Origin: Pirellulales bacterium
GTDB lineage: Bacteria > Planctomycetota > Planctomycetia > Pirellulales > PALSA-1355
DNA length: 64,000 nucleotides
Reading direction: 5' to 3'
NCBI GenBank assembly: GCA_022844125.1
Contig: JALHMI010000016.1
Location: forward strand, 1 to 64,000
Made by a program: the position numbers and the translations under genes. The notes beneath the pieces were generated by a model that was not told where the DNA came from, did not search any database, and saw only the letters and a list, made by a program, of their open reading frames with translations. Positions 58,869-61,418 of this stretch are shown here, piece after piece (position 1 is the stretch's first letter; each line of letters begins with the position of its first letter).

Positions 58869-59882
58869 TTACATCTTCTGTCCCAGCGCCCCGGCCACCT
58901 TGCGGCACATCTCCATCGTCGCCGCGAACTGCTCGAAGTTCAGCGACTGGTAACCATCGGACATCGCCCGTTCCGGATCGGGATGCACTTCCAGGATCAA
59001 GCCGTCCGCGCCGGCGGCCACACTCGCCGCGGCCATCTGCGGCACCAGGTAGGTGTGGCCCGTGCCGTGGCTCGGATCGACCACCACCGGCAAGTGCGTC
59101 TTGGCGTGCAGGTAGACCACCGTCGCCAGCGGGAGCGTGAACCGGGTATGCGTCTCGAACGTGCGAATCCCGCGCTCGCAGAGCATCACGTTCGGGTTGC
59201 CGCCGTTCAGGATATATTCGGCCGCGAGCAGCAGCTCGTCGATCGTGGCGCTGGGGCCGCGCTTCAGCAGCACGGGCCGATCGGTCGCGCCGACCGCCTC
59301 CAGCAGGCGGTAGTTCTGCATGTTCCGCGCGCCAATCTGCAGCACGTCCGCATACTTCGCCACCAGCGGCACGTCTTCGCTGGCCACAACTTCGGTCACC
59401 ACGGCCAGGCCCGTCGCATCGCGCGCCGCGGCCAAGAGCTTCAGGCCGTCTTCCTTCATCCCCTGGAAACTGTAGGGGCTCGTGCGCGGCTTGAACGCTC
59501 CGCCGCGCAGCGCCGTCGCGCCGGCCTTCTTCACCGCCCGCGCACATTGCAGAATCTGCTCTTCGCTCTCCACCGAACACGGACCGGCAATCACGCCGAT
59601 CGTCCCCGCGCCCACCGTCAGGCTGCCGGCCTTGATCTGGGTCGGCTCGGGCTTCAGTTCCAGGCTGGCCCGTTTGTAGGGCGCGAGGATCGGCATCACC
59701 TCGGCCACGCCCGGGCCGCTCTCGAGCGATTCCTTGTGCGTCTTGCGATCGTCGCCGACCGCGGCGATCACCGTCCGCTCGGTGCCGACAATCACATGCG
59801 CCTTGAGGCCCAGCGATTCGATTCGCTGGACCATATGGTTGACGTCGGCGGGCGTCGCTTCTTTCTTCATCACCACGATCAC
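58869..59882 (-). CDS. aroF: 3-deoxy-7-phosphoheptulonate (DAHP) synthase, type I-beta with N-terminal regulatory domain
   Basis: A 337-residue enzyme that condenses PEP and erythrose-4-P, the first step of aromatic amino-acid synthesis. Residues about 1-70 are the ferredoxin-like (FL) domain ([39 protein letters not shown]) that mediates Tyr/Phe feedback inhibition in the Thermotoga enzyme. The barrel follows: [69 protein letters not shown] with metal ligands. The start is GTG at 59882, with GGAGAC seven bases upstream. A leader peptide and attenuator precede it. Confidence 0.97.
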
Positions 59883-59969: not shown

Positions 59970-60006
59970 AAAAAAAGCCCCGAGACTTCTGGTGAGTCTC
60001 GGGGCC
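59970..60006 (-). terminator. attenuator terminator in the aroF leader
   Basis: A perfect 11-bp stem in the leader RNA: AGTCTCGGGGC (coordinates 60005-59995 read as complement) with its partner at 59987-59977. The loop has 7 bases and seven uridines follow (59976-59970). It ends 88 bases before the aroF start, so it would stop transcription before the gene. Its 5' arm (59993-60006) can pair instead with 60051-60064. Confidence 0.92.
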
Positions 60007-60035
60007 TTTGTTCGTCGCTTCCTCAGGATGGAATC

Positions 60036-60110
60036 TTACGTTCCTCCTCCGGCCCCGCGACTCAGCGGGCTAAAAAAGAACCAATAATACGCGCGGAGGA
60101 AGTTGTTCAT
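60036..60110 (-). CDS. aroF leader peptide rich in Tyr, Trp and Phe
   Basis: A 24-codon ORF with ATG at 60110-60108 and TAA at 60038-60036. It begins MNNFLRA and then has Tyr-Tyr-Trp-Phe-Phe-Phe (codons 8-13, 60089-60072), then SPLSRGAGGGT. All three aromatic amino acids are tested by six consecutive codons, plus a Phe at codon 4. It is followed after 30 bases by a strong terminator and then by aroF, whose product starts aromatic amino-acid synthesis. Position and composition match trp/phe-type leader peptides. The ribosome-binding site is weak (GGA five bases upstream); a possible promoter places the transcript start very near the ATG, so it may be translated leaderless. Too short for standard gene finders. 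Confidence 0.88.
   Translation of the reverse strand: MNNFLRAYYWFFFSPLSRGAGGGT
60051..60064 (-). promoter_or_regulatory. antiterminator strand within the aroF leader ORF
   Basis: In the RNA this reads UGAGUCGCGGGGCC. It pairs with the 5' arm of the terminator and the bases beside it, GGCCCCGAGACUCA (60006-59993), at 13 of 14 positions with one G-A mismatch, longer than the terminator stem itself. It lies over codons 16-20 of the leader ORF. A ribosome stalled at the Tyr-Tyr-Trp-Phe codons would leave it free, and a ribosome reaching the stop codon would cover part of it. Confidence 0.85.
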
Positions 60111-60116
60111 GTCCGT

Positions 60117-60145
60117 ATTCTGGCTTGCGGCCTCCGGCATTTCAA
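60117..60145 (-). promoter_or_regulatory. candidate promoter of the aroF leader
   Basis: On the minus strand TTGAAA (60145-60140), a 17-base spacer and CAGAAT (60122-60117) place the start of transcription at or next to the leader ATG. The -10 match is 4 of 6. Confidence 0.35.
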
Positions 60146-60270: not shown

Positions 60271-61068
60271 CTACCGGGCAGCATACGGCTGCGGTTTTTC
60301 GGCCACTTGCGCCGCCGGACCGCCGCCAGTTTTGGCCACTATGTCCCGGTACGCCCGGACGCTGGCAATCGCCTGGCTGGGTTCGCCGCTGATGGCCGAG
60401 GGGCGCAAGTAGGCCACCAGCCGCCCCTGGCTTCGCGCCTGCTGGGCCAGGGCGTTAAACTCGGCCTGCGAGTTCCACGGTTTTTGCACCTTCCGGCCGT
60501 CCATCGTCACCGTGACATACGCGGCGGCATTTTCCGGCGGCAAGTTATTCTCGTAGAAGCCCTGCTTCGAGAGCACGCCGAACAGGCGATCCGCCTCGGC
60601 CGCCGGCACGTCCAGCGCCCAGGTTTCGTGCACCTCTTCGTGATGCCCGATCCGCGGCGGCTTCTCGCGCACCTTCAGTAGATCCCAGCCCGAGCGCGCC
60701 TCCGATGCCGACTCGTCGCTGTCGATCGAGAACGTCACCCGGGCGAAACCTTCGCGTCCGGCCGGATGCGGCTTTTCGACCGTGAGCGTGCCGATCGAGC
60801 GCCCCGCGAGCGGGCTGCTGGCAATCTGCTCGTAGTTCACCTGCCGGCCGTCGATGCTGAGCACCTCCAACGGCTGACCGAGCTTGCCCGCGTCGAGGCG
60901 ATATTCGAGCTTCGCCTGGTTATAGAACCCCGCCGAAACATCGCGCGTCACCGGCGCCCAAGGCAGCTCCGGCAGCGAAGCGCAAGAAGATAACAGAACG
61001 GGCAGAAGCGCCGCGCAAAGCCACCTGGCATTGGCTGCGAAGGACGATCTGACTTGCGTCGTGTTCAT
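60271..61068 (-). CDS. uncharacterised lipoprotein
   Basis: A 265-residue envelope protein of unknown family. The N-terminal signal ends in LLPVLLSSCASLPELP, a lipobox with Cys at about 29. The mature part is about 235 residues with alternating beta segments (GQPLEVLSIDGRQVNYEQI, AGRSIGTLTVEKPHPAG, AAYVTVTMDGRKVQKPWNS). No catalytic motif is seen. A C-terminal Ala/Gly/Pro-rich tail follows. The ATG at 61068, with GAAGGCCGAAGG upstream, is chosen over a GTG at 61092 that would overlap the cupin stop codon at 61089. It is probably co-transcribed with the cupin gene. Confidence 0.7.
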   Translation of the reverse strand: MNTTQVRSSFAANARWLCAALLPVLLSSCASLPELPWAPVTRDVSAGFYNQAKLEYRLDAGKLGQPLEVLSIDGRQVNYEQIASSPLAGRSIGTLTVEKPHPAGREGFARVTFSIDSDESASEARSGWDLLKVREKPPRIGHHEEVHETWALDVPAAEADRLFGVLSKQGFYENNLPPENAAAYVTVTMDGRKVQKPWNSQAEFNALAQQARSQGRLVAYLRPSAISGEPSQAIASVRAYRDIVAKTGGGPAAQVAEKPQPYAAR

Positions 61069-61088
61069 CCTTCGGCCTTCATCCTTGA

Positions 61089-61418
61089 TCACAGATAGTC
61101 GTCGCGGATCGGATTAAACACGTCGAGCGCCCGCACTGCGCCGTCGACCGCCACCACCTTGTGCACGACACCGCCGGGGATCCGCCACATCTCGCCGGCC
61201 CGCATGCGCCGCGTCTGGTCGCCGATCGTGAAGTCGGCCACCCCTTCGAGCATCAATCCCATCTGCTCGTGCGGATGGCTGTGCTGCTCGACCACCGCTC
61301 CCGGTTCCATCTCCACGAGTGACAGCATCATCTGCTGGCAGGCCGTGGTGTAAATGTGCACGCCCGGGAAGATCTCGTGGTGCGAGCAATCTTTCTTATC
61401 GACGAAGTAGCTGAACAT
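61089..61418 (-). CDS. small single-domain cupin protein
   Basis: A 109-residue cupin. Motif 1 is GAVVEQHSHPHEQMGLMLEGVADFTIG, with His-x-His and Glu as metal ligands. Motif 2 is AGEMWRIPGGVVHKVVAVDG, with the fourth ligand His. Such small cupins bind a metal and a small ligand and serve as enzymes or sensors; this one gives no specific clue. ATG 61418 is chosen; the frame continues to 62681 only as an antisense shadow of the peptidase gene. It lies 122 bases after the S9 peptidase gene on the same strand. Confidence 0.88.
   Translation of the reverse strand: MFSYFVDKKDCSHHEIFPGVHIYTTACQQMMLSLVEMEPGAVVEQHSHPHEQMGLMLEGVADFTIGDQTRRMRAGEMWRIPGGVVHKVVAVDGAVRALDVFNPIRDDYL

Follow-up and report, generated by a model that had tools for sequence, protein, structure and literature searches.

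The window analysed here is a stretch of 64,000 nucleotides (64 kb) from a Pirellulales bacterium, and all features described below lie on its minus strand. It carries an aroF gene (58869-59882) encoding a DAHP synthase with an N-terminal ferredoxin-like domain (PF00793, PF18152, NF006421 and TIGR01361), the GTG start codon of which has the sequence GGAG 7 nt upstream. An earlier note on this DNA had named both the enzyme and the domain, and the profile matches agree with it (PF00793 and TIGR01361 for the former, PF18152 for the latter). By analogy with other DAHP synthases, the ferredoxin-like domain may subject the enzyme to Tyr/Phe feedback.

Directly upstream of the DAHP synthase gene lies a short ORF, MNNFLRAYYWFFFSPLSRGAGGGT (60036-60110), which runs for 24 codons from an ATG at 60110 to a TAA at 60038-60036 and is kept in relatives. 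It contains the codon block TAT TAT TGG TTC TTT TTT (60089-60072), specifying Tyr-Tyr-Trp-Phe-Phe-Phe; relatives keep the aromatic block with its order shuffled. The earlier note had described this ORF and its codon run, and direct reading of the DNA gave the same positions, length and residues. With six aromatic residues in eight, the aroF leader is unique among the 936 short ORFs of the window, the runner-up having four, and at most five in eight were reached in 40 copies of the window drawn from a first-order Markov model. ORFs with at least six aromatic residues in eight numbered 22 in 30 kb upstream of relatives' aroF genes, as against none in 283 kb of background from relatives. The aroF leader is thus far above chance expectation. 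Folding of the whole leader gave z = -4.3, none of 200 shuffles being equally stable. TTT makes up 71% of Phe codons in the leaders, compared with 24% in the bodies of aroF genes; the window's own aroF contains zero TTT codons and zero Trp codons.

Promoter and predicted start of the leader transcript

The sole promoter-like match in the region consists of a -35 box, TTGAAA (60140-60145), and a -10 box, CAGAAT (60117-60122), which ends 6 nt before the leader ATG. Relatives keep TTGNNN at 16-18 nt spacing, and the 6-7 nt spacing between -10 box and ATG recurs in most Pirellulales leaders. Transcription is predicted to start at about 60110-60111. A longer ORF of 34 codons would result from another in-frame ATG, at 60140; the ATG at 60110 is favoured because of the promoter spacing. 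Among 60 pooled leaders, a set that includes a few duplicate loci, 31 showed the -35/-10 arrangement 5-8 nt before the AUG, where 0.17 were expected and 500 Markov sets gave three at most. After deduplication to 72 leaders, a promoter stood 4-10 nt ahead of an in-frame start in 35, and in 28 of those the start was an ATG at 6-7 nt. The promoter-bearing leaders are mainly from Pirellulales, those of Planctomycetales and Gemmatales being mostly without such a promoter.

Shine-Dalgarno-like sequences precede only 6 of the 60 pooled leaders, which together with the promoter spacing suggests that the leader mRNA probably starts at the AUG and is translated leaderless. Neither this promoter nor the probable leaderless initiation had been mentioned in the earlier note. 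Leaderless attenuator peptides are known from Actinobacteria, namely leuL2, trpL1 and ilvL of S. lividans (PMC8079986) and the ilvB leader of C. glutamicum (PMC11857589), where the mRNA likewise begins at the AUG of the peptide; they differ from the window's leader in serving other pathways, and its own start is predicted from promoter spacing only.

Alternative structures of the leader RNA

Between the leader ORF and aroF lies an intrinsic terminator (59970-60005) with a perfect 11-bp stem, formed by GCCCCGAGACT (60005-59995) and AGTCTCGGGGC (59987-59977) and followed by TTTTTTT (59976-59970). A second helix can form between TGAGTCGCGGGGCC (60064-60051), which we call segment 2 and which lies inside the coding region over the Leu-Ser-Arg-Gly-Ala codons, and GGCCCCGAGACTCA (60006-59993), segment 3, which is common to antiterminator and terminator; 13 of the 14 positions pair. 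In addition, segment 1 (CCCGC, 60065-60069) can pair with 60058-60054 within segment 2, as a putative anti-antiterminator or pause hairpin. The stem with its seven U residues and the 13 of 14 complementary positions had both been reported in the earlier note and were found as described.

That note had further proposed that terminator and antiterminator exclude each other, and alignment of relatives bears this out in that both helices covary (0/500 shuffles each). The alignment comprised 35 sequences whose leaders had been picked by aromatic content, so that the aromatic content of the aligned leaders is partly circular, whereas pairing, promoter spacing and the test for all three residues given below are free of this circularity. 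For the terminator, 89.5% of cells held standard pairs and double-sided changes numbered 67, where 22 were expected (0/500 shuffles); the pairing was destroyed when the helix was slid. For the antiterminator, over which the alignment is imperfect (67% paired), percent paired, double-sided cells and covariation score all lay above every one of 500 shuffles. An alignment-free comparison, in which the strand of each leader was set against its own terminator arm and against those of other species, gave summed duplex energies of -1011 kcal/mol for own arms and -790 (sd 21) for permuted arms, with none of 20,000 permutations as low, a significance that is not an exact probability, as some of the sequences are related and share a common GC content. 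Composition alone is insufficient to account for these energies, because shuffled strands averaged -14 as against -23.5. The hairpin between segments 1 and 2 is weakly indicated, with 69.7% of cells paired and a covariation score reached by 2 of 500 shuffles but double-change counts no better than those of slid versions. RNAalifold recovered only the terminator from the alignment, as expected since the two structures are exclusive.

A thermodynamic model of ribosome position reproduced the mutual exclusion of terminator and antiterminator. In equilibrium folding the antiterminator can also form without any ribosome, a state in which termination is not favoured; this and the weakly indicated hairpin of segments 1 and 2 weigh against an attenuator. 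In most leaders, 12-23 nt separate the GGGGCC core of segment 2 from the stop codon behind it. Taken as a whole, the locus shows the marks of an attenuator: end-product codons clustered in a short ORF, a terminator between the ORF and the gene, and an excluding antiterminator in the region that a ribosome on the ORF would control. Because this anatomy is conserved among relatives and the exclusive helices covary, we regard the element as very probably a ribosome-mediated transcription attenuator of aroF.

Two readings dispense with the ribosome. The hairpin stands 3' of an unrelated gene on the same strand (60271-61092) and could be the ordinary terminator of that gene, with a chance ORF and no regulation; however, promoter, leader ORF and complementarity all fall within the interval from that gene to the terminator, and their conservation goes along with aroF. 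The covariation and the link to aroF refute this reading, to which we give virtually no weight. Riboswitches and T-boxes too end in terminator/antiterminator pairs, but at gathering thresholds no Rfam family, including the Trp, Phe, His, Leu and Thr leaders, T-box and riboswitches, matched in the window, and the best weak match of a relaxed search (E 0.09; 23.5 bits, cut-off 49) was to the His operon leader, itself a ribosome-mediated attenuator. A known element of that kind in place of a translated leader is therefore exceedingly improbable. Being absent from Rfam, the aroF attenuator is a candidate new family.

Distribution of the leader and of sister elements

The comparison drew on 80 loci with genes for close relatives of the window's DAHP synthase. 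Most planctomycete loci have a dense-aromatic ORF and then a strong terminator upstream of aroF, as in the leaders YFYTYFWFFFSLRGRRAGGGI, WFRYFWFFYFTGLCPGAGG and YYRFWFYFTPPVRGVVGG; the search of aroF upstream regions for such leaders with covarying arms, which the earlier note had named as a check, was thus positive. The same note had held that loss of the leader in relatives keeping aroF would count against it. Most planctomycete loci keep the leader, but a detectable leader was absent from some close relatives that retain aroF among the 80 loci (L014, L024, L029 and L032). At several of the loci lacking the leader ORF, aroF is placed directly behind another gene. At one further locus (L026), promoter and terminator of aroF are kept while leader ORF and antiterminator are missing, possibly a decayed attenuator.

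The order of Phe, Tyr and Trp varies among the relatives' leaders at constant aromatic density. This bears on an alternative in which stalling is brought about by the nascent peptide itself, through a small aromatic molecule that it binds in the ribosome tunnel, in the manner of TnaC or Erm peptides. Interactions between the tunnel and nascent peptides rich in aromatic residues are possible, and in Pirellulales the peptide has a conserved tail, GRGAGG; yet order and identity of the aromatic residues vary freely while their number is constant, and the tail is accounted for by the antiterminator strand encoded there, differing where that strand differs (L034, L037, L040 and L044). We consider such an arrest peptide very unlikely.

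A covariance model built from the alignment was run against 199 genomes of the class and, at E<=0.01, matched in 109 of them, representing 71 of 110 genera, a tally that includes some sister elements at leuA and cimA and perhaps plain terminators. Of the best 30 matches, two lay at contig ends and 28 before aroF orthologues, which share 65-80% identity with the window's enzyme; 20 further matches that we inspected lay before aroF (11), leuA (7) and cimA (2). The same architecture occurs before aroF orthologues throughout Planctomycetia; in other classes a few members have it. Those other classes of the phylum gave three matches before the same enzyme type and four before a DAHP synthase of the E. 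coli-like AroFGH type (TIGR00034). The AroFGH-type loci, L174, L177, L178 and L179 of another class, have aromatic leaders and terminators, for example MNVRNASGYYFYSFSYPWRDPGLRELT.

Within the window's own genome, a second aroF of the FXD type sits behind pheA. We looked for a leader at this pheA-aroF operon and at two trpE-type genes of the same genome and found none at either. Weak matches of the covariance model in this genome, on C14, C15 and C12, were rejected as resembling ordinary terminators.

The leaders at leuA (2-isopropylmalate synthase) surfaced as cross-matches of the aroF-leader model: seven loci of other Planctomycetia (L161, L163, L164, L166, L168, L169 and L170) have leader ORFs with runs of Leu codons, and terminators. 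The window's own genome has an Ile/Val-rich leader, MSRNGHPNQNLSPTAEKGVVAIEIIIREVRP followed by a stop, with a terminator before cimA (citramalate synthase, TIGR00977) at G000:C2:35586-35693 (L147, about 1450-1620); this cimA leader ends VVAIEIIIREVRP. At another locus (L167) the cimA leader reads IIGIIIG before its stop and again has a terminator. A leader-like ORF with a terminator, MKNYLLLNYLYLYLYILRKGRRGDGLS up to its stop, was also seen at G300:C1:1945139-1945260 (L176), with no amino-acid gene recognised downstream.

Amino-acid input and relation to known attenuators

The earlier note had read the leader as a sensor of all three aromatic amino acids, and the comparison of relatives supports this through the conserved leaders, the covarying arms and the retention of all three residues beyond permutation. 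The aromatic blocks of the 72 distinct leaders, which had been selected by total aromatic content and not for having all three residues, contain 242 Phe, 127 Tyr and 112 Trp. Phe, Tyr and Trp occur together in 62 of the 72; permutation of residues among leaders gave 49.7 (sd 3.4), with none of 5000 permutations reaching 62, and all three aromatics therefore seem to have been kept by selection.

The residues are not evenly placed, however. The last position of the block (position 0) is Phe in 57 of the 72 leaders and position -2 is Phe in 45, whereas Trp is commonest three codons before the last. In the window's leader, footprint geometry has a ribosome stalled at F11-F13 covering segment 1, one at W10 reaching its edge, and one at Y8-Y9 remaining upstream without coverage. 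Because the footprint over segment 1 differs in this way among Phe, Trp and Tyr codons, the three amino acids may be unequal in weight. An attenuator that senses mainly Phe, and perhaps Tyr, with Trp and the upstream Tyr codons of little effect, would fit both the Phe-rich positions and the restriction of segment 1 coverage to F11-F13. It has a precedent in the aroR-aroF attenuator of C. glutamicum, where the leader has Phe-Tyr-Phe and, as Neshat et al. 2014 are cited in PMC11802643 (see also PMC4046766), the system responds to Phe and not Tyr, transcription being raised by limitation of Phe but not of Tyr. Against a Phe sensor stand the retention of three aromatics beyond permutation and equilibrium folding, in which the antiterminator can form wherever the ribosome stalls up to codon 14. 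We regard a mainly Phe-sensing attenuator as possible, although unlikely.

From the sequence comparisons we infer that the ORF is translated, that ribosomes stall on it, that transcripts terminate, where they start, and that tRNA charging is sensed, and we propose the following for the three-amino-acid attenuator. RNA synthesis would start at the leader AUG or no more than 1-2 nt from it, and a ribosome would load straight on the 5' end. When charged Phe, Tyr or Trp tRNA is scarce, it would stall in the YYWFFF block, leaving segment 2 (60064-60051) free to capture the emerging segment 3 (60006-59993); this pairing would block the terminator, and RNA polymerase would continue into aroF. When all three are plentiful, the ribosome would reach the stop codon (60038-60036) and there cover the GGGGCC core of segment 2 with its footprint, so that segment 3 would pair with segment 4 and transcription would stop at the U tract; the resulting leader RNA would be about 141 nt long. 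In this feedback logic, any of three end products would act on the first step of the common aromatic pathway. We think it rather probable, if well short of assured, that one leaderless peptide is an OR sensor with three inputs, the charging of Phe-, Tyr- and Trp-tRNA, at the start of the shikimate pathway; that it is ancestral in Planctomycetota; and that it belongs to a phylum-wide set of ribosome-mediated attenuators (aromatic at aroF, Leu at leuA, Ile/Val at cimA) and stands before two DAHP synthase subfamilies in different classes.

The mechanism is textbook in outline. The trp, pheA and his leaders of E. coli likewise have stall codons in a leader ORF, an exclusive terminator and antiterminator, and a stop codon placed so that segment 2 is covered, but each reads one amino acid, initiates by Shine-Dalgarno sequences and serves other targets. 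Leaders that read several end products of a common pathway exist in E. coli, in ilvGMEDA (Ile/Val/Leu) and thr (Thr/Ile), for the branched-chain or threonine pathways and not the aromatic one. If correct, the present reading places classical translation-coupled attenuation in Planctomycetota, a phylum in which coupling of transcription and translation has been debated on account of planctomycete cell organisation. The leader would offer a conserved, compact reporter for tests of coupling and of leaderless initiation in the phylum. Naville and Gautheret 2010 noted that before their Firmicutes case leader-peptide systems had been shown only in Proteobacteria and Actinobacteria (PMC2965389).

The novelty assumed in the earlier note held in part. 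Attenuation of aroF is itself known, described in C. glutamicum (PMC11802643, PMC4046766) and proposed in Acholeplasma (PMC8632094), whereas the three-aromatic input logic and the phylum appear new: in the literature searched, with subscription papers mostly outside its scope, we found no earlier report of an aroF attenuator in planctomycetes, although an earlier computational mention is possible, and no described attenuator reading all three aromatic amino acids. The C. glutamicum aroR system resembles the window's leader in having an aromatic-codon leader peptide before a DAHP synthase gene and ribosome-mediated transcription attenuation; as portrayed in the sources cited above, it differs in reading Phe/Tyr only, with no Trp, and belongs to another phylum. 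The Acholeplasma uORFC-13-1 motif, proposed computationally from 24 representatives in one genus, also places a uORF with at least one Phe codon, a terminator and promoter boxes before aroF, but three-amino-acid input is not described there (PMC8632094). As the phyla are distant, the planctomycete leaders are likely to be independent in origin from both. Aromatic-rich short ORFs also lie upstream of DAHP synthase genes in MAGs of Acidobacteria and Deltaproteobacteria (L077 and L079), with the sequences IYFFGFTYRF and, with a terminator, RFFMFYYF, which suggests that similar attenuators may exist outside Planctomycetota.
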